From contig JAWAXC010000009.1 in NCBI GenBank assembly GCA_038897115.1, positions 1 to 33,886 on the forward strand: a DNA stretch of 33,886 nt, written 5' to 3'. The position numbers and the translations under genes are program-made. Under the pieces are notes generated by a model. It was not told the DNA's origin and made no database searches. It saw nothing but the letters and a program-made list of their open reading frames with translations. Below, one piece after another: positions 1,480 to 33,886 of this stretch. The stretch comes from Sulfolobales archaeon. GTDB taxonomy: Archaea; Thermoproteota; Thermoprotei_A; Sulfolobales; AG1. Every line of letters begins with the position of its first letter. Position 1 is the first letter of the stretch.

Positions 1480-4400
1480 GATGATCTACTATAGAATTGA
1501 AAGTACCAACCCCCGAAAAGGGGAGCCAGCAGCCAAATAAGATGATCTACTATAGAATTGAAAGAGCATGCTGGGTCTGACAGGCCAGGCGATCTATGGG
1601 CTTCTCTGATGATCTACTATAGAATTGAAAGTTGCTGTACCTACATTGACATATGAATTGCTATAGATAGATGCGATGATCTACTATAGAATTGAAAGAA
1701 TAGTAATAGTAATAGTATATAGATCTAGTAGTAGTAGTAAGATGATCTACTATAGAATTGAAAGTTGATATAAGATACACTATTCTAAGCCTTGCTTTGA
1801 AAAACGCTGATGATCTACTATAGAATTGAAAGCCCCATCTCCCAACAGCTAGACAGACAACAAAACCCAGCAAGATGATCTACTATAGAATTGAAAGAAA
1901 GACTACGAAAAGGTGGATGACCCAGATAGACTGGCGGCGAGATGATCTACTATAGAATTGAAAGTAAAGGGGAGAGGCTGTGGCTGCCCAGAGGGTTATA
2001 TAAGAGATGATCTACTATAGAATTGAAAGCAGTGGATGGATAAGAATCGAGGCATAGATCAATGAGCTTCAGGATGATCTACTATAGAATTGAAAGTTCG
2101 AAAGAGCGTCTAGTAGAGCCCCGAATACAGGGATATCTGATGATCTACTATAGAATTGAAAGAGGTTTTAGATAGATCACGCCACCTTTTTGCCCAACAG
2201 CATGATGATCTACTATAGAATTGAAAGGCACCTGTGAACCCTGTTGAATGCCCAGGTGATCAGTGGTATGATGATCTACTATAGAATTGAAAGTTTTGCA
2301 TTTCTCGATCGTTTTATGCTTAGGGCTATTGCTATGATGATCTACTATAGAATTGAAAGCTCGTTAGTCCCAGTTGACCAAGAGACAAGAGATGGATTTG
2401 TGATGATCTACTATAGAATTGAAAGGATCAGGTGGATCCACGATATCTAGTGCCTAGAACACTTAACATGATGATCTACTATAGAATTGAAAGCGTGTAT
2501 AAGGGGCACAGCTATGGCTTTCTCGATGCGTGGCTGATGATCTACTATAGAATTGAAAGGGCATTGACAGCCCAAGCGATCCACTCGTCCACTGAGGGCT
2601 CTGATGATCTACTATAGAATTGAAAGACAGGATACCGTGCAACGGAGTCTGTTATCTGGTGGTGGATGATCTACTATAGAATTGAAAGTTCTCTTGGAAT
2701 GAGACACTAAGAGCCGAAGCAGAAAGACGATGATCTACTATAGAATTGAAAGCGGTCTACTTGGGTTGCTCACCAATCTGCTACTCAGAGGCCCATGATG
2801 ATCTACTATAGAATTGAAAGATAACGTGGTGGGTACTATGATAGTACCTTAATAGTACTATGATGATCTACTATAGAATTGAAAGCTTCTGACCTCAACC
2901 GCGGCACTGTGCAGCTATCACCAGTATGATGATCTACTATAGAATTGAAAGCAATACACAATACAGCCTACCACACCTGGGGCTGGAGGGAGATGATCTA
3001 CTATAGAATTGAAAGCTATTCTTGATAATCTTAGCTCTAGCTCATATTGCTCCATCTTTCCTTGATGATCTACTATAGAATTGAAAGAAGAGCCCTCCTC
3101 CTCTCAATCTGAACTCTGACGTCTTCTAGATGATCTACTATAGAATTGAAAGTCGCTATACTCTTTTTCGATCTCAACAAGCCCTTGACCCGCGATGATC
3201 TACTATAGAATTGAAAGATATAAGTTGCTGAGGGGTTGGAGGAGGAGATGGAGGATCCGGATGATCTACTATAGAATTGAAAGACTCTGTCTAGGAAGAC
3301 GCTTCCGTTGTATGCTAGGTAGTATAGATGATCTACTATAGAATTGAAAGGACGATGATCTCGACGACGATTGTGACGACAACCCTCTCAAGGATGATCT
3401 ACTATAGAATTGAAAGTCTATACTCGCCCCGTGTCATGGCGAGAACATCAACGGGGCCGGATGATCTACTATAGAATTGAAAGCCCAGGATGCTGGGCAG
3501 CTTAGGTGGTGTAAATACAACAAGGATGATCTACTATAGAATTGAAAGCAGACAGATATCTCCACCTAGCTGTGAGATGCTCAAGCACTTGCCGATGATC
3601 TACTATAGAATTGAAAGGCTGTATAAGATTTAGCGCGGGGATCCCCCTTCTAAATATTTTTGATGATCTACTATAGAATTGAAAGTCACCCTTTTCTGCT
3701 ATCTGTTAGATATGGCTATAGGAGATCTAGATGATCTACTATAGAATTGAAAGAGCTGTCTTCGGCAGAAGCCCTGGGGATGAGGGTAGGGGGCCGATGA
3801 TCTACTATAGAATTGAAAGGAGAACCAGTTAATAATCTGTCCTTCTCTTGATTCTGTTTTCGATGATCTACTATAGAATTGAAAGCTTCCATCGGTGAAA
3901 TAGGTCGCCACAAGAACACTGTCAAGATGATCTACTATAGAATTGAAAGAGGCTGTGAGAAAGCAGTCGCAACCCACATAGCAAACCTCATGATGATCTA
4001 CTATAGAATTGAAAGGGCTTCTGTGATAACAGATCATCAATGTATTTCAATAAACGATGATCTACTATAGAATTGAAAGTTTACATAATTCTAACTCACT
4101 TAGAAACTCCTTCTTCTTATCTGATGATCTACTATAGAATTGAAAGTTATACCTCTACTATATAATTCTAATACGCTATAGTTTGGGATGATCTACTATA
4201 GAATTGAAAGGATCAGCTACACAGGGCCAACAACAAATATATCAGGTAGAGGATGATCTACTATAGAATTGAAAGCCCACTCATTGTCAAAGGGGCATCA
4301 GATATATTTAGTGTCGGGATGATCTACTATAGAATTGAAAGACACTTGGACTGCACATATACGTCGAGGCTGTGAACTGCTAGATGATCTACTATAGAAT

Positions 4401-6655
4401 TGAAAGGTTTTATACACGACACTACACGCCTTTGCCAAAGCCAGAGCTGATGATCTACTATAGAATTGAAAGACTAGCTTTTTTAACCAGATAAGTACCT
4501 CCGTCTCGCTCAGATGATCTACTATAGAATTGAAAGCTGATCATAGTTAAATGGGATTGATCCTTGGATCACTATCCTGATGATCTACTATAGAATTGAA
4601 AGATATACTCTAGACATTCTTTCTCTGCTTTTTCTCTCCTCATTTTCTGATGATCTACTATAGAATTGAAAGAGGAAAACACTTGACACACAGCTAGCCC
4701 AGCTTCTAAAAGATGATCTACTATAGAATTGAAAGCACTAGCTGTTATTGCTGCAATCGCGGGGTCAAGCTTTCTAGGATGATCTACTATAGAATTGAAA
4801 GAGCTTGCTTGCTATTGCCCTTGCAATGAAAGTGGGGTGTCTAAGGATGATCTACTATAGAATTGAAAGATATAGAGCGCCCGCTCATACACAAGATCCT
4901 CATCGCTTCTAGATGATCTACTATAGAATTGAAAGTATTGCGAGGAGCAAGATAGTAGATCTGTTGCTGAGGATCCAGATGATCTACTATAGAATTGAAA
5001 GTATTATATGGCCCCGTAGGTGGAAATGCTGGCCTCGCTGATGATCTACTATAGAATTGAAAGCTACTTTAAAACCATAGCTACTTGAGAGTAGATAATA
5101 GCTATAGATGATCTACTATAGAATTGAAAGGTATTCACACCGAAATCCGCAACACTCATCCCTACCACCCCCTGATGATCTACTATAGAATTGAAAGCAT
5201 ATACAGACTGTACTGCGAAGAACAGCCAGAGAAACCAAGATGATCTACTATAGAATTGAAAGGCTAACAGAAATAGAGAAAAAGCTATTCGACAGGCTGA
5301 TGATCTACTATAGAATTGAAAGGACACAGTGGTGGCAAGGGCTCTTGAGGAGAACCAAGACGATGATGATCTACTATAGAATTGAAAGAGATGTTATCAG
5401 GGATGTGATAGATGCTCACAGGGCTGTCTATGATGATCTACTATAGAATTGAAAGGCAAGCTATGCTCGATGAATTTCCTCGTGATGTCATATATCTCTC
5501 GATGATCTACTATAGAATTGAAAGGAAAAGTCGGTGGTGTCTATAAGTACTTCTACTATAGGTTCCTGATGATCTACTATAGAATTGAAAGGTATATACA
5601 TACTCAACGTCTATTATCCCCTCTAAGGCAGCGATGATCTACTATAGAATTGAAAGGTTGAGGCTACTCTATCGCTCGATGTAACTGTTGAGTGAGGTGA
5701 TGATGATCTACTATAGAATTGAAAGATGCTATCATTAGCCTGAATGCCTTCTCAAACTTCTCTACTGTGATGATCTACTATAGAATTGAAAGATGGCATA
5801 TTGCTTTAGGGGTAGTTCTAGCCTCTATCCAGTAGATGATCTACTATAGAATTGAAAGGAGGAGAGAGCTGCACCCGCTGATAGCAGCAGCAATAATGTT
5901 CGATGATCTACTATAGAATTGAAAGCGATGTGAAATCGCTTAGAGTATTCACCAAGGTTGTGAATGCATGATGATCTACTATAGAATTGAAAGGAGCTGA
6001 TAACGATATACGACACTGATTATCTGGTCAAAGCTGATGATCTACTATAGAATTGAAAGATGGGTCGTCGAAGACCTGTACAATGATCTCGTTGCCCGAT
6101 ACCGAGATGATCTACTATAGAATTGAAAGGACCCCGATCATCCAGCTTCTCCACAAAGCATCCAGCCCTTTGATGATCTACTATAGAATTGAAAGCCTTG
6201 TTCTCGTCATATTTCGTTTCCGCCACAAGGTATTTGATGATCTACTATAGAATTGAAAGTTATAAGGGCAAAAATCGATTATTTTGAAGGGGTTAAGAGG
6301 GATGATCTACTATAGAATTGAAAGCTGCCCCGCTGTACCTGCTATGCCCTGGCGGGGGGTTTAGAGATGATCTACTATAGAATTGAAAGTCAAGCGGCAC
6401 AGGGAAAAGCCCAACCATAGAGATTATAAGCCTAGATGATCTACTATAGAATTGAAAGTCTATAGAGGACGCCTAAGGCTTTGTTAAGCTCTCTATACAC
6501 CCGATGATCTACTATAGAATTGAAAGCTTCACAAACGGCACCATATGCCTCGAGGGGCATAGAGTGGATGATCTACTATAGAATTGAAAGTAACAGCGTA
6601 TCTAACCAATCTTCCTCATTAACTTCCTCTAGATGATCTACTATAGAATTGAAAG
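1480..6655 (+). CRISPR. CRISPR array, 79 repeats and 78 spacers (Sulfolobales-like repeat)
   Basis: The 24-nt repeat begins GATGATCTACTATAG and ends AATTGAAAG. I count 79 copies, the first at 1480-1503 and the last at 6632-6655, and saw no substitution in any. Spacers are about 37-46 nt, mean 42. The repeat differs by few bases from known Sulfolobus repeats served by type I-A and often type III effectors, which fixes the reading direction as plus and puts the leader on the left. The last repeat is intact, with no trailer decay. No cas gene lies in the window, so processing and interference must rely on loci elsewhere. Spacers with unusual composition include 1699-1740 (AGT/AAT triplet runs) and 2821-2861 (internal palindrome). 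Open frames inside the array are translations of the repeat and are not genes. Confidence 0.98.
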
Positions 6656-6785
6656 TGAAGTGAGATGGGAAGCGACGTTAAGATATATTGGGAGGATAGG
6701 GGGATAGTATGTATGTGATAGCCCTTTATAGCTGAATACCTTGCCTGTGGGGTGGTGATGTTTATCGGCTTTCTATGTTCTGGTG

Positions 6786-11686: not shown

Positions 11687-11755
11687 GCTAATCTTGTGGG
11701 AGGGTATGAGAGTTACATTAATAAATAGAATTAAGGTTGAGAGGGGGTGGGTATA

Positions 11756-13018
11756 GTGAAATCACAATATAGAGAGGTTCTCTTCAGGGAGTTAGTACCT
11801 CTAAAGTCTACTACGTATGCAACTCATGGTCTTTATATGTATCCAGCTAAGTTTATTCCACATATTGTTAGATATGCCATCGAGAGATATACCGAGCCGG
11901 GGGACTGGGTTTTCGATCCTTTTGCGGGGTATGGTACGGTAGCTATTGAGGCCTCCCTAACAGGTAGGAATGCGGTTCTATGGGATTTAAACCCTGTGAC
12001 CGAGGTTCTCACGCTAGCCTCTTTATATAGATGGGATATATCTCTGAGGGATTTTGATCTTGATTGGGGCTATGGGAAGGAGTTCCACCCTATGTGGGAG
12101 AACATATTCTACTGGCATCCAAGGGATTTTTATAATGTCTTGACAAGGGTTTGGGGCTATTGGCATTATGAGGTCTATGGAAAGGCGAGAGATCTGGAGG
12201 AGGTTTCTAAAGCCTATCTCATCGCGATCCCACTGCTGAAGGTTACCAGGTTCTTCAGCTATTCTGATGAGAAGATAGCTAAGCTATATAGATCCAAATA
12301 TGCTGAGGAGAAGGTCAAGACTCTTCTACAGACAGATTGGAGGAGTAGAATGGTTAGAATGTACTGGGGATATGCTGAGGAAGTTGTTGAAAAGGTTAAA
12401 GAATATAGATCTCTTAAACCAAGGGATATCGAGATAGTTATCAGGACTAGCAGAAGGGCGAACAACAGGCTAGAGGTGTTCGACGCCATAAGGGCAAGGC
12501 TTGATAGAGAGGTAAGGCTTCTAATAACCTCGCCACCCTATCTACAGGCGCAGGAGTATATAAGGAGTTTTAAACTCGAACTCGTATGGCTTGGCTATAC
12601 AGGCTCGGATTTGAGGATCTTGGCGAGCCACGAGATACCCTATAACAACCCGCCACAGGTGGATATCCACAGCAGGCTATTCCATGGAATCAGAAAAGAG
12701 ATCATGAAGCTTAACCACGGAAAGCTCCTCCAAATATACGACGCCTATTTCCACTCACTAGCAAGCTTCATAAACAACAACCACGACAAGGTAGAGATCA
12801 TGGCTATATTCGTTGGCCCTGTAAAGATTAGAAACATGAGAATCCCTATAGACGAAATACTGAGAGAACATCTAGAAACCCTGGGATTTAAGCACGTAGA
12901 AACACTAATAGATAGAATAGTCTCTCGAAGACTGTTCAAAGTAGAGGTGAACCCAGCCACCGGATTAGCAGATGAGAGAACACCAACAGAACATCTTCTA
13001 ATTATGAGAAGAAAATGA
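11756..13018 (+). CDS. DNA methyltransferase (N4-cytosine or N6-adenine) of a restriction-modification pair
   Basis: The product is about 420 aa. YPAKFIPHIVRYAIE is followed by motif I, VFDPFAGYGT (AdoMet binding), and VLWDLNP (motif II region). The catalytic motif IV is LLITSPPYLQAQEYI, near residue 260. TSPPY is typical of N4-cytosine methylases but also occurs among N6-adenine enzymes, so the modified base is open. The AdoMet site comes before the catalytic site, with about 190 residues in between that probably hold target recognition. I chose the GTG at 11756, six bases after the strong Shine-Dalgarno GAGGGGGTG; a GTG at 11747 is in frame but within that site. The gene ends 10 bp before the next gene, which encodes a probable restriction endonuclease. 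The methylase should protect host sites from it. Confidence 0.9.
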   Translation: MKSQYREVLFRELVPLKSTTYATHGLYMYPAKFIPHIVRYAIERYTEPGDWVFDPFAGYGTVAIEASLTGRNAVLWDLNPVTEVLTLASLYRWDISLRDFDLDWGYGKEFHPMWENIFYWHPRDFYNVLTRVWGYWHYEVYGKARDLEEVSKAYLIAIPLLKVTRFFSYSDEKIAKLYRSKYAEEKVKTLLQTDWRSRMVRMYWGYAEEVVEKVKEYRSLKPRDIEIVIRTSRRANNRLEVFDAIRARLDREVRLLITSPPYLQAQEYIRSFKLELVWLGYTGSDLRILASHEIPYNNPPQVDIHSRLFHGIRKEIMKLNHGKLLQIYDAYFHSLASFINNNHDKVEIMAIFVGPVKIRNMRIPIDEILREHLETLGFKHVETLIDRIVSRRLFKVEVNPATGLADERTPTEHLLIMRRK

Positions 13019-13028
13019 AGGGGATTTT

Positions 13029-14426
13029 ATGAGAAACATAAACATTCTATACCTAACACCCGAGAAACTGTTTAAAGACAGATACCTACTACTTAAGCAG
13101 TGGGAATCCCTTGAGACACTAATTCCATGCTTCCTAAGATCATTATATGAAGGCGAGATACAGGTAAAGCTCCATGAGTTTGATAGAATCTTCACAGGGT
13201 TGAAAAATAATGATTTTTTGGATGAGCATGATGTTTTGGCTAGAGTGGCATCTATATGGTATTATTTCACAAGGCTTACCCATCAATCTGTAGGTCCTAG
13301 GATAGGGGGTTTTGCTGAGGAAATGATTAAATTCTGGATGGAGAGATCAAATTGCTATTCCTCTGTATTCAATGATGTAACTTTGGGAAGAGTTTTAAGG
13401 GAGATTTTCGATTTAAGAAGAAACTATAGAAACAAGATAGATTTTGTTGCACATACAAAGAGAGAGGATAATACTAGTAAAGTTCTTTTCATAGAATTAA
13501 GAATGAGTGAACATACTGGTGGTAGGACAGGGCAGGAATCATTATTAGATAAATTTAATAAGATATTAGACTTAGTAGTATCTGAAGAGCTTGTTAAAGC
13601 ATCGCTAGAGAAAGGAATTAATGTTATTGAACTCATTATAGCTATATTGTTCAATGAGAGCCAAGAACTTATTGAAAGAAGTAGAGGTAATTTTGAGAGA
13701 GGTAGAATAAAGTCGCTAATTAACTACATACTCGAGGAGAATCATATATGGGGTAGGATTTCAAAGATCAGAGGCAAATATGTTTTCTGCGATGGTAGAG
13801 AAATAGACAATGCAAAGTTTAAAACCTCCTTAGAAGAGAGCAACGAGTTCTGTATAGCTAAGAAAGATTCAGATTTCAAGATACGTTTAAAAATACTTCT
13901 TGGAAACGAATTTTTCCAAGAAGTTATAGGACATAAACTTGAAGATCTAATTAAGCAGTATGGCAACACAATAGCTGATGATTTATGGGTTATGTATACA
14001 CTAGCAATAAACGAGCTTAAAATAGCCAAGGAGCTCAGAAAAACAAATGTATCAAGAATATATGAAATAGCAAGAACAGATAATGAATTGAAAAAGATCT
14101 TTGAAGAATTCAAAAAACTTTATAATGAAGGCGAAAATGAAAAGCTATTGTTTGAAGAATATATTGAAGAACTAAACAAAATCATAGATAGGTTCTCGAA
14201 TGCTATCTTGAAGGTAATTAGTGAGCACAATGAAGAGCTTAGACTATTGGAAACTAATGACATCACAAAAGCTTATAGATATTTAAGATACATATGCACA
14301 GCTGTATTATCGCTATATTTAACACTTGAAGTTATGAATGATAAAAACTTCTCTAAATGTAGGTGGGAGGATCTAAAAGTTAGAACGAATCACGAAATAT
14401 CTTTAAATAAATGGTTAGATACCTGA
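13029..14426 (+). CDS. Probable restriction endonuclease partner of the methyltransferase
   Basis: The product is 465 aa. Residues 90-100 read PRIGGFAEEMI, and NKIDFVAHT (D138) is followed by VLFIELRMSEHTGGRTGQES (E156-L-R158), arranged like a PD-(D/E)xK core with Arg or a later Lys in place of the usual Lys. The rest is mainly charged helix. The start ATG has GAAGGGG in front and lies 10 bp after the methylase stop, so the two form an operon. The gene is clearly more A/T-rich than its neighbours, with many AAT, AAA and ATA codons, which fits recent transfer. The sequence specificity cannot be read. Nuclease assignment rests on the D...ExR pattern plus context. Confidence 0.7.
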   Translation: MRNINILYLTPEKLFKDRYLLLKQWESLETLIPCFLRSLYEGEIQVKLHEFDRIFTGLKNNDFLDEHDVLARVASIWYYFTRLTHQSVGPRIGGFAEEMIKFWMERSNCYSSVFNDVTLGRVLREIFDLRRNYRNKIDFVAHTKREDNTSKVLFIELRMSEHTGGRTGQESLLDKFNKILDLVVSEELVKASLEKGINVIELIIAILFNESQELIERSRGNFERGRIKSLINYILEENHIWGRISKIRGKYVFCDGREIDNAKFKTSLEESNEFCIAKKDSDFKIRLKILLGNEFFQEVIGHKLEDLIKQYGNTIADDLWVMYTLAINELKIAKELRKTNVSRIYEIARTDNELKKIFEEFKKLYNEGENEKLLFEEYIEELNKIIDRFSNAILKVISEHNEELRLLETNDITKAYRYLRYICTAVLSLYLTLEVMNDKNFSKCRWEDLKVRTNHEISLNKWLDT

Positions 14427-14773
14427 AAGTAATTAGTGATAAGCTAGATAAAGAAGGAGAAAGCTCTCTACATTGTTTACAATATCCCTCCTAATACGAT
14501 CCTAAAGCATAGGCTGAAATCAAAGTAAAGTAAGCCAATGTTTAGCTTAAGAAGGCTTAAGATGAAAGGAGAATGCTAGGGGGCTCTTGCAGAGCTTGTC
14601 AAGGGTATTGGTAATTTGAAGGACTGCTGTCTGAAGAAGTGATAGTAAGACAAAAATTAGTTACAGCAGATAACTACATAATATTTGGGAACCTATAATA
14701 ACTATATTAAGAGATTTCACTTATAGAGCTACTGTAATAAAATAAAATGCGATAAAAATCTTTTAAGGTTTAT
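14427..14773. other. Convergent intergenic region
   Basis: About 350 bases separate the ends of two convergent genes. I see no gene. A short hairpin GCTCT-TGC-AGAGC (14583-14595) and two CTTAAG copies near 14545-14560 are the only structure. The hairpin is not followed by a T-run, so I do not call it a terminator. Confidence 0.4.
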
Positions 14774-23529: not shown

Positions 23530-23894
23530 GCTATTCACCTTATCAAGAATAAGTTAATGACTACTCATATATAAATTTATTAGTGAGTTGATTCATCACT
23601 AGATTCTTCACCTAAGCTTTAATAATAAATACAATTACAGATATCTCAGCCCAAAGATCGCTGTGTATAGGGATGAGAACAAATTTAAAGGAGTTGTTGA
23701 AGCTCTACTTACCAATAATAAAGAAGAAGGTAGTCTTCTTAACAACTTTTAATAGACAATTCGAAAATGCTCAGCCAAAACCATCCCGAGGATGCAGGTT
23801 TAGAGATTTAAAGATCCTAAGAGAAGTGCCGGAGAGTAAAAACAAAGTTTTGTGATAGAGGTCCTTCGTGCGAAATTTTATATTTAGCTTAATC
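23530..23894. other. Divergent intergenic region
   Basis: About 365 bases between the permease operon and the next gene. A 60-codon plus frame (23673-23855, beginning MRTNLKELLKLYLP) has no ribosome-binding site and no similarity I recognise; I leave it uncalled. A short inverted repeat, AAGAAG near 23722 with CTTCTT near 23735, is present. Otherwise I see nothing. Confidence 0.35.
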
Positions 23895-23902
23895 TTATAT
23901 AT
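23895..23902 (+). promoter_or_regulatory. TATA box deciding the start of the PD-(D/E)xK gene
   Basis: TTATATAT is about 26 nt before the ATG at 23922, the distance expected for a leaderless transcript. It lies inside the longer open frame that begins with GTG at 23868, so this promoter argues for the internal ATG as the real start. Confidence 0.45.
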
Positions 23903-23921
23903 CCTGGGTTTGGGCGTTATT

Positions 23922-25826
23922 ATGGATCTGAAGTCTCTTATAGATCGTGTAGCTGGAAAGAGTCTTGCTCATGCCATAGGTATTTATATTTATTATAAAT
24001 CTGATCCTGATGAGGCTTCTAGCAATGTGATGGCCACACTATCAGAAGGTTTCGATAGAAATGTTGCTGAAAATGTTTTGAATGATATACTTATGAGTTT
24101 TAAGGGTTTTAGTCACTATAATAAGGTTGTGGTTGAGGGTAATGAGATTTCGTTATATCAATTTGTGCCAAGCTATGTCTATAAAACTCATATCGCCCCC
24201 CATATTGAGAGGGAAGCTCGAAATAGGCTTGCTAATGCTAATGAAAGGGATCTTAAGATGCTCACCGCCGCATCGGCTATAATATCAGCAATGGTGAAGA
24301 AGAAGAGGATAGGTTTAGCTCTCTCGGTAGATAGGGGTAATGAGGGAGAGGTGCGTATATCATCTCGTAATGTAGATAACCTATCTGCAGCTGTCTCGAT
24401 TATTCTAAGATCTAGTGTTGATGATGTTAGAAAGCTCTTCTACAAGTATCTCTTAGGGGCTCAGCTTGATTGGGGTTTTGCTAGACATGACTACTATGTC
24501 TTAGAGATCTACTCCGATACCCTTAAACTTGTTGAGTTTCTAGCATTAAGAATATCTAATTATATCAAGATCCCGAATAGACCTGAGATAGAATCAATAC
24601 TTGCTACGCTGTATGAGGAAAAGGATATACTCAAGCTATCAATACTCTATAATTCCATAAGGATATCTACATATAAAGATTGGGAGTTCCTGAGCGCCTT
24701 TTTTGGCTTGCCAAAGGAGCATCTATGTAAAGAATCTAGTATCGAGAATATATTCTATAATTGTGCTGTAAACCCGCTTATATACGAAGATGTTCGTGAT
24801 ATAATTGAGTATCTATATAATAAATATGTTAATGAGCTTAGTTCAAGAATTATAAGGATCTTTGAGTATATGGGTTATAGCAAATCATCGTGTGTTGGTA
24901 ATAAATGTGTGTTAACGAAAACGGGAAGGAGACCCGTTTTCATCTATATAGAGCCTATAGTTAAGTATCCATATATATTCTCGAGTGATATATCCATAGA
25001 TAGCTATAAAATAATATTTATAGAAGGTATCCCTAGTGAATCCATTCTCAAATACATAGCATCAGATGCGATACTTAGAGATTTTCTTTGGATTTTTATA
25101 AGCAATGATACAGCCTATATTGCTAGCACCACATATAAACATATCGAACACTCCGAGATAGTTAATGCAGTAAGTCAATGGTATAAAGTGAGGTTCCTCG
25201 GCGCTGTTCCAGCGGGGGCTACACAGATGATTCAACAGGCTGAAGTTAAAAGAGAGATACAATCTGTAACAACACAGCTTATTAGTATCTCGAGGGAGAT
25301 TTCTCTTAAATATCGCGGTAAGGATATTCTTGAGGATGTTGTTGCCAGCGTTCTCGAGGATCTTGGGTTTAGTGTTAGGGTTGACTATAGGGTTAGGAGT
25401 AGGGCTGGAACAGATGTTGAGATCGATGTTTGGGGTGAGAAGGGTGTCGGGGGTTCTCACTTCTACGTATATGCCTCATGTAAGAACCTTGATAGGCCTG
25501 TCGAGGTTAGCACTATCAGGGAGGAGTTTGGTAGGATTATGCAGATGCCAGTGATACCCCATGTAAGGCTTATGGTTGCATCGAAGCTTACAGACTCTGC
25601 AAGGAGAGAGGCTATAGCAGATGGCTTCATAGTCATAGAGGTTGGTAAGAAGACAACAGAGGAGAATGTTGAGGAAGTCTATAAGATGATCTATAGTAAG
25701 TTGAACGAAATATTTGTAAACATAGCACCAACATGGCTTCAAGAGCTAGCAAATAAAATACTAAAGATAGCTGAGGAGCTGAAGAAGATAAGCGAAGAGC
25801 TGAGCAAAATACCACCAACAAAATAA
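23922..25826 (+). CDS. Large protein with a C-terminal PD-(D/E)xK (Mrr-like) nuclease domain
   Basis: The product is about 634 aa from the ATG at 23922 (chosen because of the TATA box 26 nt upstream). The first 440 residues have no motif I recognise. After a coiled segment, residues of about 460-600 form a restriction-endonuclease-like fold: YRGKDILEDVVASVLEDLGF, TDVEIDVWGEKG with the metal-binding Asp (about D502), VYASCKNLDRPVE with Lys (about K521), and FIVIEVGKKT. The second acidic position of the motif is Ser (SxK), as in some archaeal Mrr-like proteins, so cleavage must be tested. The C-terminus is a coiled coil, LANKILKIAEELKKISEELS. A role in nucleic-acid cleavage or defence is inferred from the domain and from the neighbouring accessory genes. 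Confidence 0.75.
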   Translation: MDLKSLIDRVAGKSLAHAIGIYIYYKSDPDEASSNVMATLSEGFDRNVAENVLNDILMSFKGFSHYNKVVVEGNEISLYQFVPSYVYKTHIAPHIEREARNRLANANERDLKMLTAASAIISAMVKKKRIGLALSVDRGNEGEVRISSRNVDNLSAAVSIILRSSVDDVRKLFYKYLLGAQLDWGFARHDYYVLEIYSDTLKLVEFLALRISNYIKIPNRPEIESILATLYEEKDILKLSILYNSIRISTYKDWEFLSAFFGLPKEHLCKESSIENIFYNCAVNPLIYEDVRDIIEYLYNKYVNELSSRIIRIFEYMGYSKSSCVGNKCVLTKTGRRPVFIYIEPIVKYPYIFSSDISIDSYKIIFIEGIPSESILKYIASDAILRDFLWIFISNDTAYIASTTYKHIEHSEIVNAVSQWYKVRFLGAVPAGATQMIQQAEVKREIQSVTTQLISISREISLKYRGKDILEDVVASVLEDLGFSVRVDYRVRSRAGTDVEIDVWGEKGVGGSHFYVYASCKNLDRPVEVSTIREEFGRIMQMPVIPHVRLMVASKLTDSARREAIADGFIVIEVGKKTTEENVEEVYKMIYSKLNEIFVNIAPTWLQELANKILKIAEELKKISEELSKIPPTK

Positions 25827-26175
25827 ATAGTGAGAGAACATGACTATAGCATTTAGCTATAAGTAATAAATGTGAAATCAATATAGTATAGATATAAGCA
25901 TTTTCAATAAGGCTGTTAACCTCTTCATCGGAACTTATAAAGGGGGTTATAGATGATAACAACTATCATCTTCGAGATAGATCTGGAAAAGATCTGTATG
26001 TTCACTGCTTCTAGAAAATAGGTTAAGCAACATCTAAATAGACAGAGCTGGTTCTCTCTTTACTTATATCTAGAGGAGTGCTTTACCTTAACTAAGAATC
26101 ATGCTCCTAACCCTCCTTTCCCATAAGCCTTTTACATTAATTTAATACTAACTTTGGGATACTTTAATAGAGAAT
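25827..26175. other. Intergenic region with an operator-like palindrome
   Basis: About 350 bases with no gene I can support. AGATGATA-ACAAC-TATCATCT (25951-25971) has perfect 8-bp arms and lies about 10 bases downstream of a TATA-like CTTATAAAG near 25934. It may be a binding site for a dimeric regulator or a hairpin at the start of a short transcript. The gene at 26176 has only weak promoter-like A/T sequence near 26133-26144. Confidence 0.4.
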
Positions 26176-27978
26176 ATGGAGATAGGGAAGCTCTTTCCAA
26201 CATATCCTATACAGCCGGTTTCTCCTAGGAAAGAGAATATTAGGATAGCGTCTCGAAGAATTTATGTAGATTTTCCATATGTATTTTGGGAGTTTATAGG
26301 CAATGTTCTTCCAAAGATAATTAGATCGGAAAACCCGCGGGAAACTCTTCAAAAAGAGTGGGAGCTCTTCATCTCTAATGAAAAGGTAAGAGAAATTGTG
26401 ACTTTCAATGGCGCTCTTCTGGGAGCTGTATCGCTTGTTGCTACTCCATCCACCTCAAAGCTATTATTAAAGCTTAAGGTCAACTGGCCTGTATTCCTCC
26501 AATACTTAGAGAATGAGGCTCAAGAGCTGGTTTCTGAAGTGGAGAAAGATAGCTCTAGCATTATGGGTGTTTACAACTTGATTATATATAATTACTTCAA
26601 GATAGCGTTATTGATCCCGACTCCTGAGGTTTCTAGATTTAACGTTTATGAGATGGAGAAATTCAAGAAACTATTGAGAAGGCTACATGAAGAGCAGGAT
26701 ATTAAACGTTCCCTCCAAACAATTAGAGAAGCTATAAGGAGTATTAGAGAAAGAAGTAGAGTAAGAGCTATAGAATTGTGGATGCTCCAACTTGAGTCAG
26801 ATTTCTATGGTGTGGAGAAAAGCTTTGAAAATCTGGATATTCTATCATGCTATTTCTATCTAAGAAATGCATTGGAGAACCTCGTCAGGCTAGTATTCTA
26901 TAGCGATATAGCGAGGGAAATAACTAGGGAGATATTTAATAAAAAGATAAGCAGAGATATAGGTAAAAGGAAAACAGTATATTTCGACATCTATGATCAA
27001 ATTTTAGGAATGTTCTTCTTCTACGATAAGACAGCGAAGAAACACTGCAGTAGAAAATGTGAAATTAATGAACTAAAAGATGAATATATAAAGAAAATTG
27101 TAGATAAGATCGCGGAGTTTCCAAGAATAATTCATAAGTCAGATTTAGAGAAAATGTTACTTACAATTGCTGAAACGCTTGACAAGGAGAGCTTGCCACG
27201 ACTAAGTATAAGTAAACATATACTAAAAGAATTTCGGGAGAAATATAAAATCGATATACCAATTGAGAACTACTGGTCTGCGTGTAGTGAGATCTTGCAT
27301 AATCAATCCCCTCTTCCATTCTTCTCACTACTAGAAGTAAAGGCATTTAAACACTTCCTAAGGCTATATGTTAGACGCTTCTTATCACTCATCAAGGTCA
27401 TACCATCAATTATTGAAATTACTACAGAAAGAAGTTTTGAAGCCCCTGTTATAGAGCTTGAAAAATCTTCAACAATCGCCGAAGAAGTGATGGGAGAAGA
27501 AGTGGTACAAGGATTCTCCATAATAAAACAAAAACGTAGTAGAATTAATAGGAGGCTATTACTTCGAATTCTTAATTATGAGATGGAGGAAGAGATAAGG
27601 GTAGTTTTAAAATCTCTAATAAGTGAGCTAATAAGCGATGAAGACGTTATTGAAGAGAGAAAGCTGATTAAAAAGCTATATTTTGATCTCTTAACTCTAG
27701 CCTCTCTATTCCATCTTCTCTCCCCTCCTCTAAGACGTATCTACTCTGGAGAATTCGGGATCGATGATGTGGACTATCTCATCACAAAGATTCAGCCCCT
27801 TTCATATCATATTGATCTTAAAAGTGAGTTTTATACAACACTCCAAATGCTTGGGGAGAAGATTATACCTAAACTCGAACAAATTTTCCCACCATTTTCT
27901 ATCTTGGATCAAGAAGTGAAAAGAGCCGTTACCTTCTACCTTCTAGCTCTAGAATTGCCTAGGCTTCTTGCCTTATAG
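26176..27978 (+). CDS. 600-aa helical protein of unknown function, possible HEPN-like region
   Basis: I do not recognise a named family. The protein is almost wholly alpha-helical and highly charged, with no signal or membrane segment, so it is probably cytoplasmic. Two segments, CYFYLRNALENLVRLVFYSD (225-244) and YWSACSEILHNQSPL (366-380), resemble the paired motifs of HEPN-like helical bundles, where R-N-A-x-E on one helix is followed later by a helix ending in xxLHxxS. A CSRKCEINEL segment (291-300) has two close Cys. HEPN proteins are often RNases in defence and toxin systems, but the strict RxxxxH motif is not evident. It follows the PD-(D/E)xK gene on the same strand, separated by 350 bp, and converges on the 352-aa gene. 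Confidence 0.65.
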   Translation: MEIGKLFPTYPIQPVSPRKENIRIASRRIYVDFPYVFWEFIGNVLPKIIRSENPRETLQKEWELFISNEKVREIVTFNGALLGAVSLVATPSTSKLLLKLKVNWPVFLQYLENEAQELVSEVEKDSSSIMGVYNLIIYNYFKIALLIPTPEVSRFNVYEMEKFKKLLRRLHEEQDIKRSLQTIREAIRSIRERSRVRAIELWMLQLESDFYGVEKSFENLDILSCYFYLRNALENLVRLVFYSDIAREITREIFNKKISRDIGKRKTVYFDIYDQILGMFFFYDKTAKKHCSRKCEINELKDEYIKKIVDKIAEFPRIIHKSDLEKMLLTIAETLDKESLPRLSISKHILKEFREKYKIDIPIENYWSACSEILHNQSPLPFFSLLEVKAFKHFLRLYVRRFLSLIKVIPSIIEITTERSFEAPVIELEKSSTIAEEVMGEEVVQGFSIIKQKRSRINRRLLLRILNYEMEEEIRVVLKSLISELISDEDVIEERKLIKKLYFDLLTLASLFHLLSPPLRRIYSGEFGIDDVDYLITKIQPLSYHIDLKSEFYTTLQMLGEKIIPKLEQIFPPFSILDQEVKRAVTFYLLALELPRLLAL

Positions 27979-28388
27979 ATAGTTTTAAATAAGTCGGCTC
28001 TTTTCACTTTCGCCTTCACTTATATCCCTGAAAGAGTTCAATGAATATCTAAACATTATCTGGAGGGATTAACCCAATCAGTTTTTATAATATAATAAGG
28101 TGTGGATATGTTTAAACATGGTGTTAAGATATTATGCTGGCTGTGTTTTGTTTAATAAGTTCCCCTATTGTGTGAATAAAGATCTATCTATACTTTTTGT
28201 TATTGCTCCTAGCTTCTTCTTAAGTCTCTGCTAGTTAAGTTAGTGTTTATGATAAGGATGAGATGTAAAGCTTCGCTATGGTTTTGAAGGCTTGTAATAA
28301 AATGTTATAGGAGCTTGCTGTCTAGCATTTTAATATATTCTCTGCTTATATTAAAGATCTTTTTAAAGCTCTCCCCTCATTCATAGCT
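27979..28388. other. Convergent intergenic region
   Basis: About 410 bases lie between two convergent genes. I see no open frame with a ribosome-binding site, no RNA gene and no clear palindrome. A/T-rich tracts such as TTTTTATAATATAATAAGG near 28081-28100 look like promoter sequence but lead into no gene I can identify. Confidence 0.35.
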
Positions 28389-29447
28389 TTATTTAGTATC
28401 GATATACCTTAGTGTATCAGCTATAAGCTTGATCATATAGGCTGTTAATCCCATGAGCGACTCGACTTGATATAGTGTTGGTGCTGGCTTAGGTGCTAGA
28501 TGGGGTTGCGTGGGTGTGGGGCCTCTTGTTGCAATATTCTTAATGTTAACAAAGATCTCCTTTATAAGCCTAGCCATCTCTTCATTACCTTGGAAGAGCT
28601 CTACAAGCTTATCATCAACCAGGGTACACCCCCTATCCTGTGTTTCACTAGCTATACCTAGGGGCTTTAATGCCTCGCAAACCTCTATGAGGGCATTTCT
28701 AAGGGCTGTTAGTGGTGGGCCTATATCGAGTGTCTCGTATATGGCTTCTCTGGCCTTCTTCAATGATTCTATAGCGTTGCTGAAATGCTGTAGAGCCTCA
28801 TCTGAGATTAAAGGGGGCTTGGGTATTGGAAGCTCCAATAATATGTAACTTCCTAACCCTAGTACTGGTAGGAAATCTTTGATCCATCTAGGACCCTCGA
28901 TCGTAATCTGTGTTTCAAATTCACTACTCTCTACACTTAATAAATGTTCCCCAGCTTTCAGCATCACTGCATCGGCCGGGAGTCCAAGTCTCGAAGAAGA
29001 ACCCTCTCCAACTCTATATATATAGTCCTTGTGGTAAACCCTGCTGAAGAGCTTTAAAAACCTTAGCTTAAGCTTTAACTCTACTTTCTGATATTTGTTC
29101 GCTTTTCTTCTCTCTTCGATATAGTTGATCGATTTAGCGTCTAAGAACGCTCTATACTTGAGATTCAAAATAAGCTGGATGTAGTCTTGATATTTTTCAA
29201 AAAGATCCACTATTATAGTAGGAGCTGCGATAGATCCTTTGCTTGTGAAGGTAGTTGTCTCGAGAATAGCTTGGGCTAATATCTTCCCGTCATCTGAATA
29301 TAGTCTACCATCTATAGGTATGTAGATCTCTGCACCCGTGATTATTCCCTCAATTTGTATATCGAACATGAGACAAGGTACTATAGTATCTCTACAGACA
29401 TCCACAACATAGGTAATCTTAGGAGCTGGTTGTCCCAAGTTAACCAC
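28389..29447 (-). CDS. 352-aa two-domain protein of unknown function with C-terminal helical (HEPN-like) domain
   Basis: The N-terminal 200 residues are beta-rich and of no family I know. From about 212 on the protein is helical: ALQHFSNAIESLKKAREAIY, then TALRNALIEVCEALKPLG (R250), then NIKNIATRGPTP (301-312) and a final helix. This layout, helices with RNALxE and then N-x-x-N-x-A, recurs in many uncharacterised archaeal and bacterial proteins and looks HEPN-like. The 600-aa neighbour has a similar RNALEN helix. The start is GTG 29447, eight bases after AGGAG. It is divergent from the HsdR_N-type nuclease gene, sharing a 380-bp control region with it. The GPTPTQPHLAPKPAPTL stretch is a Pro-rich loop. 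Confidence 0.65.
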   Translation of the reverse strand: MVNLGQPAPKITYVVDVCRDTIVPCLMFDIQIEGIITGAEIYIPIDGRLYSDDGKILAQAILETTTFTSKGSIAAPTIIVDLFEKYQDYIQLILNLKYRAFLDAKSINYIEERRKANKYQKVELKLKLRFLKLFSRVYHKDYIYRVGEGSSSRLGLPADAVMLKAGEHLLSVESSEFETQITIEGPRWIKDFLPVLGLGSYILLELPIPKPPLISDEALQHFSNAIESLKKAREAIYETLDIGPPLTALRNALIEVCEALKPLGIASETQDRGCTLVDDKLVELFQGNEEMARLIKEIFVNIKNIATRGPTPTQPHLAPKPAPTLYQVESLMGLTAYMIKLIADTLRYIDTK

Positions 29448-29860
29448 CTAGCTAGCTCCTAATTAATTTTAATTCATAATGCTTTATTTAGTCATTAATT
29501 TCAATGATAGGATAAGGGGGTTGGTCTAGCTATGAACCATTAATCTATGCGGTGATTAAGTTTAAATAGACCTAATGTGTGATGTGTAGAGTATGGATTC
29601 TAATTGAATATTGTGATGGAGACTTAGTAAGGCTTGTATAGCTATTTTAAAATGTATTTGAAATATATTTGGGGATGCTGTGCTGGGGTTGATGCCTACA
29701 TGGATTTTTGATATTTTTAAGGGGTGCCATGGAGGTATGGGAGAGGGTATGCTTATATTGCTGAGTGATGATATTGCTGATCTAGGGGTTATATGGTCTT
29801 GTGATACTATATTTATGGGGCTAGGAAGGGGTGTTATGGGTTCTTGATGGTGATCTTGCT
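29448..29860. other. Divergent intergenic region, possible small upstream frame
   Basis: About 410 bases shared by two divergent genes. A BRE/TATA-like stretch ATATTTTTAAGGGG (29711-29724) is present. A 36-codon plus frame from ATG 29738 to TGA 29848 (MGEGMLILLSDDIADLGVIW, then SCDTIFMGLG) overlaps the region before the nuclease gene; its codons look plausible but I cannot support it as a gene. Confidence 0.3.
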
Positions 29861-30712
29861 ATGGGTGAGATTTCGCTGACCAAGATAATTGATCTTGTTA
29901 ATGTGCTTAGGCAGAAGATCGAGAGGTATAGGGTTGAGCTATCCTCTAATGAGATGCTTACCCGCTACGTCCTTATAGATCCGTTTTTGAGGGCTCTTGG
30001 CTGGGATTTAGATGATCCGGAGCAAGTGGTTCCTGAGCCCCGTGTTGAGGGTGAGAGGCCTGACTATGCTCTTAAGATCGCTGGGAAGATAGTTGCCTTC
30101 ATAGAGGCCAAGCCTCTCGGTGGGATAACGGATGAGGCTGTGAAGGAGAAGCTGAAGTATTCATTCGATGCGGGGGTTAGATATACTATAATCACCGATG
30201 GTGACACGTGGATCGTCTTTGACGCCTTTAAGCAGGTTCCTTGGAAGGAGAAGAAGATCTCTGAGTGGAGCATCACAGGTGAAAAACCCTCAGATATAGC
30301 GATTAAATCCCTAATCATAGCCAACATAGCAAGCTTCGGAGAGAAAATCCAAGGACCAGCAATAGCTCCAGAGACCTCTAAGCCCCCTCCAAGCCCTATG
30401 CAAGGCGGGTATAGCGTGGAGAAGGTTATGGGACCATTAACCAAGCCTCTAGCTAAACAATTAGTGCTTAAGATACTAGCTAGTGCGAGAAAACCCCTCG
30501 GAAGGAAAGAGATCGTTGAGGAAGTCAGTAAAATGATTGAGCTAACACCTCAAGATCTTGAGAGAACCAAGTGGGGCTTGGCTAGATGGGAAGCAGAGGT
30601 AAGGTGGGCAGTAACCGAATTAAAAGGGGAGGGGCTGATCAAGAGTATAGCCAGGAACCAATGGATCATAACGGAGAAGGGGCTTGAAAAATTGAAAAAA
30701 GAAGAAGTATAG
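29861..30712 (+). CDS. HsdR_N-type PD-(D/E)xK nuclease fused to an Mrr_N-like winged helix
   Basis: The product is about 283 aa. The first half matches the N-terminal nuclease domain of type I restriction HsdR subunits: MLTRYVLIDPFLRALGWD, a GERPDYALKI strand with D68, and IVAFIEAKPLGG with E82-A-K84, a complete PD...ExK set. After a Pro-rich linker (SKPPPSPMQGGY), residues 205-280 resemble the Mrr N-terminal winged helix: GRKEIVEEVSKMIELTPQDL, WEAEVRWAVTELKGEGLI and WIITEKGLEKL. No HsdR helicase, HsdM or HsdS is nearby, so it is likely a stand-alone nuclease of the modification-dependent (Mrr-like) kind. I prefer the ATG at 29861 with GGTGAT upstream; GTG 29831 in the same frame is possible. 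A gap of 355 bp separates it from the Panacea-like gene. Confidence 0.8.
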   Translation: MGEISLTKIIDLVNVLRQKIERYRVELSSNEMLTRYVLIDPFLRALGWDLDDPEQVVPEPRVEGERPDYALKIAGKIVAFIEAKPLGGITDEAVKEKLKYSFDAGVRYTIITDGDTWIVFDAFKQVPWKEKKISEWSITGEKPSDIAIKSLIIANIASFGEKIQGPAIAPETSKPPPSPMQGGYSVEKVMGPLTKPLAKQLVLKILASARKPLGRKEIVEEVSKMIELTPQDLERTKWGLARWEAEVRWAVTELKGEGLIKSIARNQWIITEKGLEKLKKEEV

Positions 30713-31068
30713 GGAGCAAATAGCCCAGTACTTCAAAGAATAAGATTAGCCTCAATAGCTCTGGTGAGGGATTCGTTTCGGAGAGAGTCATTAATATTTT
30801 ATTTATAGTTACAGGAAGCTGCAAGCCAAATCTTCGGGAGAGGATGAGGGTTTTAACAGAACACCATTAAACAAACATTAGACTTACAGCTGGAAAGCCT
30901 CGCTTTCAGGATGAGGAGCGGTAATACCTTTATCCATGGGTTTGGGTTTCTGTAGGAGGGTTGCTCTTGGATGTGGGGTTTGTTTATATGTGAGTATCAA
31001 CCTTGTAGGGCTTGGAATAGATTTATTAATCCTATGATATGTATTATGTTCTGGATGGTGTGTCTTAG
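30713..31068. other. Intergenic region with an IS605-end-like hairpin
   Basis: About 355 bases without a gene. At 30894-30920 the sequence AAAGCCTCGCTTTCAGGATG continues into AGGAGCG, with CCTC (30898-30901) able to pair with GAGG (30913-30916), or CGCT (30901-30904) with AGCG (30917-30920), around a TTTCAGG loop. This is the layout of the conserved 3' end of IS605/TnpB elements, but no transposase or tnpB frame adjoins it, so the call is weak. Otherwise I see only A/T-rich sequence. Confidence 0.3.
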
Positions 31069-31803
31069 TTGTTATCTGATATTATACTCTATATAGTTTC
31101 CCGCTTCCCAAGGGGTGTTGGGCGTACGCGTTTGATGAAGCTTCTATTCTTGGTTGATGCTATATCTTCTAAGGAGCTTGGGCACAGGGTTACTGGGGTT
31201 GAGTGGAAGCGATGGCTCTTCGGCCCCTTCTCGAGGGAGGTTCTCGATGCTCTCGATACTCTGGTTAGATCGGAACGTCTATATGTTGATGCCGGGCCCG
31301 AGGTGAGGTATATAGCCTTGGGCGAGCCACCATCTCTTCCCGAGGATGTGAGGGGAGTTGTAGATAAGGTGGTTAGGGAGTATGGTTTCATGCCTTTGAA
31401 GATGCTTCTTACAAGGGTATATGAGGAGTATAGCATAGAGAGCCTAGGCATGGGTGAGAAGATAGCATTTGACTGGTATGGAGAGATCTTCGAGCTTGCT
31501 AGGAGCGTGGATAAGGATCGAGATAGCGTTATCGAGCTAGTGGGCAGGCTATATGATGAGTATAGAGAAGCATTCGAAATGCTACCAAAGGAGATGCTAG
31601 CCCTCTACGCCATAGCTGTAAGGCATCTCTCAACATATGATGTCAAACATCTCAACAGGCTAACAAAGGATCTACTAGATCTACTGGAGGAGATGAATAA
31701 ATACACATCATCGAGAGAACCGCTACCAACAGATATCAAGAATAGGGCAAAGAATCTATATACCGAGATCCTCAACATAGCAGCAGAGGCTATTAGGGGC
31801 TAG
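31069..31803 (+). CDS. Panacea/SocA-like domain protein
   Basis: The product is 244 aa. The N-terminal domain reads GRTRLMKLLFLVDAISSKEL, VTGVEWKRWLFGPFSREVLD and ALDTLVRSERLYVD, the core of Panacea/SocA (DUF4065-like) antitoxin domains: KLLFLxD, a W-x-x-W or Y strand, GPxS and a following helix. The C-terminal half is helical, with a repeat-like LLDLLEEMNKY segment. It starts with TTG directly after an in-frame TAG, with GGTG about nine bases upstream. The stop is 6 bp before the TTG of the twin-CxxCxxxC protein gene, so the two are one operon. By analogy with known Panacea pairs, this would be the antitoxin or regulator and its neighbour the toxin or effector. Confidence 0.75.
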   Translation: MLSDIILYIVSRFPRGVGRTRLMKLLFLVDAISSKELGHRVTGVEWKRWLFGPFSREVLDALDTLVRSERLYVDAGPEVRYIALGEPPSLPEDVRGVVDKVVREYGFMPLKMLLTRVYEEYSIESLGMGEKIAFDWYGEIFELARSVDKDRDSVIELVGRLYDEYREAFEMLPKEMLALYAIAVRHLSTYDVKHLNRLTKDLLDLLEEMNKYTSSREPLPTDIKNRAKNLYTEILNIAAEAIRG

Positions 31804-31809
31804 CAATGC

Positions 31810-32646
31810 TTGAATACCATATACCTCGACTCATATTACTTTTATTCCCCCAAAACACGTGTCTACAGACTTAAACAGAAACTACCCGAAAGACTTCAAA
31901 GCTATAAACTCTTATACATGGGATTTTCGAGTCATAAGTATTTTTTACATCAGCTTATACGAACATTGTACAGTAGTGAAATAACTAGTATTCCTCATCT
32001 CTACCGTGAATACGAAGAGCCTAAACCCAGTAGGTTTATTCAGGGGCTTTTAAATGTTACGAGGAGAGTGTTATCAGGAAGATCCCGGAGCATGTATATA
32101 AGCCTAGAGAGGCTTATAGAGATCTCTAACGATGAGGAGAAAGCCTCTCTGATGGACTTTATCATCTTCTTTCTTAGATACCCAAATGCTGAGGATGTGA
32201 TACAAAGAGAGGGATGTGATCCTAGTCCTCGAATATCGTTAGATCGTAATGTAGCATTAGCTCTATATGATATGGTTACAAAGATCGACAAAGTCATTGA
32301 GCTTATTAAAAAGCATGTCGATCTCTATAAGATATATGAGAGGTATATGCTATGTTTAACCAGTAGAATCCTCGGCTTAAAATTCCCCAGAGACATTATC
32401 CAGCCTAGCATACCTGAGCCTAGTATCGATTATACATGTATAGAGTGTCAAGACATATGTGAAGGCAAGCATATAGACGATGTTAAAAGAGCTAATACGA
32501 TATTATCATATGCAAAGAATAACCCTACAATTAAAATATACATAGCAACAATAGCTACCATAAAGACAAGGCCTCTGCAGGAGTGCTTTACATGCCTAGT
32601 AGAATGTTATGCACAAAGGGTGAGCAGCATAGTCATGCTAAAATAG
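31810..32646 (+). CDS. Unknown protein with twin CxxCxxxC motifs, coupled to the Panacea-like gene
   Basis: The product is 278 aa and I recognise no family. The first 200 residues are basic and helical, opening NTIYLDSYYFYSPK, faintly like a PIN first strand (LD), but no other PIN motif follows. The C-terminal 80 residues carry two copies of one spacing, C210-x2-C213-x3-C217 (CIECQDIC) and C259-x2-C262-x3-C266 (CFTCLVEC), enough ligands for a 4Fe-4S cluster or zinc, about 45 residues apart. Two extra Cys lie at 136 and 182. The start is TTG 31810; an ATG at 31806 is in another frame that stops quickly. Tight spacing to the Panacea-like gene implies joint expression and probably joint function. 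Confidence 0.7.
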   Translation: MNTIYLDSYYFYSPKTRVYRLKQKLPERLQSYKLLYMGFSSHKYFLHQLIRTLYSSEITSIPHLYREYEEPKPSRFIQGLLNVTRRVLSGRSRSMYISLERLIEISNDEEKASLMDFIIFFLRYPNAEDVIQREGCDPSPRISLDRNVALALYDMVTKIDKVIELIKKHVDLYKIYERYMLCLTSRILGLKFPRDIIQPSIPEPSIDYTCIECQDICEGKHIDDVKRANTILSYAKNNPTIKIYIATIATIKTRPLQECFTCLVECYAQRVSSIVMLK

Positions 32647-32847
32647 ATCACATCTCTTGAGGATATACATCACACACGACAGCCTAACGGAGATTTTCCA
32701 AGCTCAGCGTCTAGTTTCCTATAATATTTATGGATCGAGATAATACCTACCAATAGCTGGGAAGTAAGGAAGCCATAGTCTAGGTAACTCTCAACCCATG
32801 GCTAAATGATTATGAAGCTTATACACGATGCATGTTTAGAAGATTCC

Positions 32848-33195
32848 TCAACATTTCTCTACTACTGTTGTTAATATATCTCGAGCCCTTATTATCTCAC
32901 AAAGCCTATAATGTATATAAGGGTGTCTCTCACTTCTTATCACTATGGTTATAGTTGTAGGATCCTCCTGCTCAATCGCCTCCATAAACCCTTTAAAATC
33001 TTTGAGGCCATCCATATAAGGCTTAATAGCTATACTTGAAATTGATATTGGCGGTCTACGCTTTTCTTCTAGTTCTTTAAGGATTTTACGCACCTTCTTA
33101 GCATAACCATATGGTATGCATACCTGTGTTAGATCTGGGATAAGCTTGTGTTTTACATATAAGGCATATATACCATATTCATAGAAGCTCGAGCA
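32848..33195 (-). CDS. Small protein of unknown function with an unresolved N-terminus
   Basis: From about 33183 the frame is coding-looking: EYGIYALYVKHKLIPDLTQV, CIPYGYAKKVRKILKELEEK, ISISSIAIKPYMDGLKDFKG, TTITIVIRSERHPYIHY and ending TVVEKC. The only acceptable start in the frame is GTG 33093, which would drop the first 30 residues. A better start, ATG 33199 behind GGTGAAGAG, reads MMLELL and then TGA in another frame; removing one T near 33181 would join it as MMLELLEYG. So the gene is either frameshifted, mis-sequenced or started late. The family is unknown. It follows the 178-codon frame on the minus strand and converges on the twin-Cys gene, with a 200-bp gap that holds nothing I can name. 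Confidence 0.5.
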   Translation of the reverse strand, partial: CSSFYEYGIYALYVKHKLIPDLTQVCIPYGYAKKVRKILKELEEKRRPPISISSIAIKPYMDGLKDFKGFMEAIEQEDPTTITIVIRSERHPYIHYRLCEIIRARDILTTVVEKC

Positions 33196-33309
33196 TCATC
33201 TCTTCACCATTTTAATGTGCCATTCGCAAACTATTTATAGTTTAATGTTATAGAGTGCATTATGATTTATTCAATATGTACTCACGTTGTTCGAGCAGAG
33301 CTTCTTAAC

Positions 33310-33886
33310 TTACCTTATATATTTGCATTTACCTCTTAACTTGGATTCAAGTAGTATCTCATCTACTCTCCTTATACAAGAATCTACCATACTCAGCACC
33401 TCTGCCTGAAGGCCTCTTAATTCTTCGGCCTCACTAGTTCTATAGAACTTCTCGCCAAGATACAATACTTCTTTCTTTTTTTCTCTGATATGTGTATATA
33501 GGTTAGGCCAGATACCTTTATCCACTCCTAAGGAGAGATAGAAAATTGCGCGAAAAGTTATGGATCTTACATCATCTATAGCGGATCCCTCGTAATGTTC
33601 CTTAAGGCGTCTATACTCAGGATCGATCCAGATAGCTTCAGAAAGCCTCTTAATAAGTTGAAGAAATTTAGAGTATTTCACCGGAATATTCTTCTCAAGC
33701 TCTTTTAGAGCTTCAACCAAGTCCTTATAATGATTTGATAAATCATCATAGAGAAGTGGGTTCACTCCAGGCCTATTTCTAAATGAAAAATTTTCCCACC
33801 ACTTTATCTCAGAGCCGAGCGCCTCATCTATTTGTTGCGGGCTCATTATGGTCTCGTTTTCCCTAAAAACAAAATATCCTCCTAAC
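33310..33886 (-). CDS. Unknown helical protein, 5' end beyond the window
   Basis: An ATG at 33846 gives 178 aa, but the frame continues without a stop to the window edge as LGGYFVFRENETI before MSPQQIDEALG, which looks like protein, so I read the gene as starting outside the window. The visible part is helical and charged (LVEALKELEKNIPVKYSKFL, LRGLQAEVLSMVDSCIRRVD, ESKLRGKCKYIR) with no signal, membrane segment or motif I recognise. The small gene at 32848-33195 follows about 110 bp downstream on the same strand. Nothing shows its function. Confidence 0.6.
   Translation of the reverse strand, partial: LGGYFVFRENETIMSPQQIDEALGSEIKWWENFSFRNRPGVNPLLYDDLSNHYKDLVEALKELEKNIPVKYSKFLQLIKRLSEAIWIDPEYRRLKEHYEGSAIDDVRSITFRAIFYLSLGVDKGIWPNLYTHIREKKKEVLYLGEKFYRTSEAEELRGLQAEVLSMVDSCIRRVDEILLESKLRGKCKYIR

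Follow-up and report, generated by a model that had tools for sequence, protein, structure and literature searches.

A Panacea protein paired with a rare, probably zinc-binding partner in Sulfolobales: a candidate toxin–antitoxin module

Two adjacent genes near the end of a 33,886-nucleotide stretch of Sulfolobales DNA (the window, contig C9 of the 2.4-Mb draft genome G000) encode a true Panacea protein and a cysteine-containing partner whose family is rare, patchily distributed and in no named family. The pair is probably a Panacea (PanAT-type) toxin–antitoxin module, in which the 278-residue partner would be a toxin of a new family. As a Panacea pair it is of a kind already known; the new details are the partner family, an extended Panacea protein and a naturally partner-less twin of the Panacea gene.

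The original prediction, made from the letters of this DNA, described two coupled genes with TTG starts and a spacing of 6 bp, the first Panacea-like and the second of no known family, and in all of these respects it was borne out. Both open reading frames are found at 31069–31803 and 31810–32646 (Table 1), TTG is the start codon of each and the intergenic gap is 6 bp. In the alignment the homologues of the partner and the 278-residue protein begin at a common residue, in favour of TTG as the start codon of the second gene. The two products contrast in charge, with a pI of 5.46 for the acidic Panacea protein and of 8.95 for the basic partner, and this contrast is present in all two-gene members, where in the others the Panacea proteins have pI values of 5.0–5.3 as against 7.7–9.7 for the partners. 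Searches of Pfam, PADLOC, NCBIfam and PHROGs, including their toxin and nuclease families, gave no match for the partner.

Table 1 Positions of the gene pair and of its features in the window
Feature	Position	Strand	Details
Possible archaeal TATA-like element TTTATTAA	31022..31029	+	~40 nt before the first gene; inferred by eye only
Panacea-domain gene, putative antitoxin	31069..31803	+	244 aa, pI 5.5 (5.46); PF13274 match; with partner in G161, G226, G034
Panacea domain proper, residues 22–113	31132..31407	+	Span of Pfam match; invariant GPF at residues 52–54
C-terminal region of Panacea protein, residues 123–244, beyond Pfam domain	31435..31800	+	Helix-like by composition; conserved in four partner-linked homologues
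Cys-rich partner gene, putative toxin	31810..32646	+	278 aa, pI 8.95; five homologues, each behind a Panacea gene
D7, acid after first predicted strand (YLDSYYFY)	31828..31830	+	Invariant in 6/6
E110, acid	32137..32139	+	Invariant in 6/6
Cys triad 1 CIECQDIC, C210–C217	32437..32460	+	C210, C213 invariant; C217 variable
H221-x-D-D224 motif	32470..32481	+	H221, D224 invariant
E258 + Cys triad 2 CFTCLVEC, C259–C266	32581..32607	+	E258, C259, F260 invariant

The product of the first gene matches the Pfam family PF13274 (SocA_Panacea) over residues 22–113 with a score of 36.8 bits (E = 8e-9), above the gathering cut-off of 25.7; against the NCBIfam model NF047745 (SocA) it scores 13.0 bits, far below the threshold of 190. 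Within the domain, G52-P53-F54 is invariant in all four partner-linked homologues aligned. The protein has no cysteine, as is also the case for several neighbouring proteins. In three-gene variants of the locus the place of its C-terminal region is taken by a separate helix-rich gene, and homology between this region and the separate helical genes was looked for and not detected.

Among 398 sampled Thermoproteota genomes, homologues of the partner with 47, 38 and 33% identity were found in three other complete genomes (G161, G226 and G034 in all); each begins just after a Panacea gene, the gaps being 5, 9 and 5 bp. A profile search of 214 genomes of the order located a distant member in a fifth genome, G471, and inspection of the Panacea matches found a second copy in G161 at 1,551,681–1,553,312. 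In both of the latter loci the gene order is short Panacea, 136-aa helical gene, partner homologue; hhalign joins the two partner subfamilies at 97%. The family therefore totals six proteins in five Thermoproteota genomes, all six preceded by a Panacea gene, either directly or with a helical gene in between. The expectation that every homologue would have a Panacea neighbour thus held in 6/6, with the proviso that the claim of constant association is drawn from six cases, including a degenerate one. The conserved arrangement consists of four two-gene loci in four distant genera, with gaps of 5–9 bp, and the two three-gene variants. The degenerate case is G471 (L042, G471:C7 8442–9928), a draft assembly 75% complete, where the Panacea frame has lost the N-terminal half and no normal start is seen for the partner frame, damage that fits joint decay of the two. 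A separate Panacea fragment runs off the opposite end of the same contig.

The spread of the partner is patchy, with members in 4 of the 214 genomes of the order and 1 of 45 in a second order, that of G034. No further members were found in those 45 genomes or in a second, phylum-wide profile search, and no relatives came from scanning GTDB contigs and IMG/VR with peptide patterns based on the partner, on its alignment and on that of Panacea. By tblastn the partner had no match among plasmids and the Panacea protein none among phages, and sequence searches of the PDB with four profiles returned matches at chance level or of coiled-coil type. A weak match of the partner profile to thymidylate kinase in other genomes was judged to be chance, and a match of a distant member to DUF3800 (E = 0.002) was off-register and was dropped.

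Linkage in the reverse direction is not obligatory: the Panacea gene does occur without the partner. A near copy of the window gene lies on another contig of the same genome, C157, with 91% DNA identity over 725 bp; the matching stretch begins close to the start of the gene, ends close to its stop and goes no further. There (L043, G000:C157 544–3353) the order is AAA ATPase, Panacea, metallophosphoesterase, with the partner absent, and the same arrangement is found in a sister species (L044, G398:C5 8756–11553), whose 94% complete assembly has no Cys partner anywhere. Over positions 26,000–33,886 of the window the Panacea gene is the only part that matches this sister species. In the Panacea tree the partner-less copies nest within the partner-linked clade with supports of 97/93 and 100/98, so that the linked state is likely to be ancestral. 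The branching within the trio is in conflict, the protein tree joining the window and C157 copies and dS joining those of C157 and G398. Codon comparison gives dN/dS of 0.12–0.24 for the partner-less copies, indicating that they are under purifying selection; together with their nesting this would fit a solitary antitoxin. We also weighed the ATPase beside the C157 copy as a possible partner and set it aside, since 12 of 14 related ATPase loci are without a Panacea gene. No partner gene was found apart from Panacea, while Panacea does occur without it, and a dependency in this direction is what a toxin would be expected to show towards its antitoxin. Near-identical Panacea genes with and without a partner in one genome provide a natural test of solitary antitoxins and of partner loss.

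The window holds further features. A large CRISPR array occupies ~1480–6690, with the 24-nt repeat GATGATCTACTATAGAATTGAAAG recurring every 64–68 nt and its core counted at least 59 times; leader-like copies lie near 1427. A DNA methylase region is found at 11,747–14,426. Not far from the pair, two large neighbouring proteins of 652 and 600 aa (23868–25826 and 26176–27978) gave no family match above cut-off in the libraries searched, and just upstream of the pair, at 29831–30712, is an HSDR_N + Mrr_N protein, that is, a restriction-like N-terminal nuclease with a winged helix. In G161 an Mrr_cat protein lies upstream and another Panacea module 3 kb downstream.

Across the phylum the partners of Panacea genes are varied and include a ClpP-like SDH protease, a PIN_4-like protein and an HsdS-like fusion. 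At two loci (L024 1264–2823 and L037 261–1722) the Panacea gene directly precedes a ClpP-like serine protease of SDH type, possibly a pairing with a protease effector; the SDH_protease match in L024 has E = 2e-9 and L037 is similar by eye. At another (L052, G528:C2 6610–8346) a Panacea-like C-terminus is carried by a protein that reads as the HsdS specificity subunit of a type I system, with HsdM- and HsdR-like genes adjoining. Other Panacea genes in two genera (L046, G000:C17 8302–9612, and L039, G161 13388–14660) are followed by a conserved 230–247-aa protein with no Pfam family above cut-off that reads as a restriction-type nuclease. Three operons (L047, L048 and L118) comprise a short Panacea, a helical protein and a third protein that reads as PIN-like (YLDVSAVL ... 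TSD/TTDH), with no Pfam match where scanned; their Panacea proteins form one tree group (93/89). L116 and L117 look similar to these operons but are truncated. A weak profile match of the PIN-like third gene to pyroglutamyl peptidase in other genomes was judged to be chance.

The partner contains 8 cysteines (2.9%), at positions 136, 182, 210, 213, 217, 259, 262 and 266. Six of them form two CxxCxxxC motifs (C210/213/217 and C259/262/266), a pair that did not arise once in 200,000 shuffles of the protein. The twin triads noticed originally are present, and full triads recur in two close homologues; the third Cys of each is variable, however, and other conserved residues, C136, C182 and H221, belong to the pattern. 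Nor are the triads found in every homologue as had been expected: in G034 both triads carry His in place of the third Cys, and the two distant members (the second G161 copy and G471) have lost the third positions, C210, C213 and C259 being kept and C262 kept in one of the two. The invariant columns of the six-member alignment include D7, Y10, Y12, E110, C210, C213, H221, D224, E258, C259 and F260. From this alignment the twin triads appear as a trait of one subfamily, and the family core as a CCHC set with four acids.

These residues bear on the metal. C, C, H, C is a customary composition of zinc sites, and Cys-to-His swaps are characteristic of them. Four conserved Cys/His ligands, C210, C213, H221 and C259, are present in 6/6, and zinc is probably the best reading of this site. 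The prediction of a metal or Fe-S site is thus upheld as to a metal-ligand pattern, while Fe-S or redox chemistry fits less well than zinc. The twin motifs of the window protein and its two close homologues are what would speak for an Fe-S, redox- or oxygen-responsive effector, as originally proposed. An invariant set of cluster-ligating cysteines is not seen, only C210, C213 and C259 of the two triads being invariant, and the paired His replacements in G034 argue against an obligatory cluster, so that we consider this effector very improbable. The shared C, C, H, C and four acids argue against a common Fe-S cluster and would favour a metal-stapled active site.

We can suggest how such a module would work. 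The acidic Panacea protein would be the antitoxin and the basic Cys protein the toxin, of a new and rare Thermoproteota family. A zinc-type site made by C210, C213, H221 and C259, with the Cys and His residues particular to each subfamily, would tie together the C-terminal part of the protein, where D224 and E258 lie, and these two acids, placed beside D7 and E110, would complete a four-acid, metal-dependent active site. The free toxin would most plausibly be an RNase, of PIN-like or another divergent fold, whose action would stop translation, and Panacea would block it by direct binding. Toxicity, neutralisation by binding, zinc and nuclease chemistry are all elements that we infer from the sequences. 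Panacea also occurs next to a ClpP-like protease and as part of an HsdS-like fusion, and its presence alone is thus no proof of a toxin–antitoxin pair.

The partner could be a divergent PIN-like ribonuclease with VapC-like chemistry and an added zinc knuckle, silenced by Panacea rather than by a VapB-type antitoxin, a tentative reading that we think less likely than not. The conserved acids looked for in a PIN nuclease come in the order D-E-D-D/E, and the invariant acids of the partner may correspond to this active-site order, with D at the end of the first predicted strand, then E, D at a helix start, and E beyond the final predicted strands, although this last acid is ordinarily Asp in PIN and is Glu here. 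The third-place proteins of related Panacea operons have YLDVSAVL and TSD or TTDH signatures that read as PIN-like, and a neighbour of one Panacea gene has a PIN_4 match (E = 5e-4) that falls short of the curated cut-off. A ranking of 366 open reading frames by profile score places PIN proteins somewhat early (ranks 9, 10, 12, 16 and 21). Against this, no member scanned has a Pfam PIN match, comparison with the PIN-like third genes did not show homology (6% at best), and hhalign of the partner with the PIN profile gives <1%. The positive control, the PIN_4-matching protein of L029, also gives <1%, and this profile test is thus without power in either direction. An AlphaFold model from the single window sequence had a mean pLDDT of 37 and was discarded. 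The partner may also be a hydrolase or nuclease of non-PIN fold. A zinc-finger regulator that binds DNA or RNA and has no toxic activity would account for the CCHC-type ligands and the basic character of the protein; we regard it as improbable, since the invariant acids and the long conserved N-terminal motif LDxYYxY resemble an active site and no HTH or finger family was matched.

Panacea might instead act as a regulator or adaptor through which a trigger is sensed, the pair then being an abortive-infection or other defence effector. The CRISPR array, methylase region and restriction-like protein of the window are in keeping with this, as are the further Panacea modules in G161 and G000 and the ties of Panacea to an HsdS-like protein and a ClpP-like protease elsewhere in the order. 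Yet PADLOC matched neither the window partner nor its close homologues, and the flanking genes vary between the loci, the two genes alone being common to all. A defence role of this sort seems to us rather doubtful, and it overlaps with the toxin–antitoxin module that we prefer, many defence systems being toxin–antitoxin pairs. More speculatively, and unlikely to hold as a whole, the partner would represent a new toxin superfamily, a Panacea-controlled, metal-dependent nuclease with a four-acid site around a structural zinc and a fold unrelated to PIN. This superfamily would be part of a broader group of Thermoproteota Panacea operons, with Panacea, a helical protein (or the Panacea C-terminal region) and a nuclease-like third gene product forming a ternary complex. 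On the preferred toxin–antitoxin reading, the candidate toxins gain an unnamed family that probably binds zinc, and its hyperthermophilic source should make the proteins stable enough for structural work.

Among known systems, SocAB (NF047745; type VI, with adaptor-mediated degradation of the toxin) shares the Panacea/SocA domain superfamily with the window pair, but the SocA score is 13 against a cut-off of 190 and the window partner is unrelated to that system by any family search. VapBC and other PIN toxins (PF01850 and relatives) are possibly similar in having four acids in PIN-like order, invariant in the partner here, and a basic toxin with an acidic operon mate. The window partner differs from them in being without a PIN sequence match, in its added CCHC pattern and in its length, about twice that of VapC, and its putative antitoxin is Panacea and not VapB. 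The closest comparison is with PanAT (DUF4065/PF13274; PMC8832971, PMC10440598). Panacea is described as a hyperpromiscuous antitoxin domain, with predicted RNases among its verified partners (PMC8832971). By forming direct complexes, Panacea proteins neutralise a variety of toxins, and a GPV motif matters, being needed for neutralisation by PanA of Vibrio harveyi (PMC8832971). The experimental work that we found concerns bacterial and phage pairs. The window pair resembles these in the placing of a Panacea gene beside a small partner gene, in the keeping of the pair in distant genomes, in the swapping of partners and in retaining the GP-x motif. It differs in that the motif is GPF rather than GPV (F in place of V, with G and P unchanged), the partner is in no known toxin family, the Panacea protein has a conserved C-terminal region of ~120 aa, and the hosts are hyperthermophilic archaea, where three-gene variants with a separate helical gene also occur.
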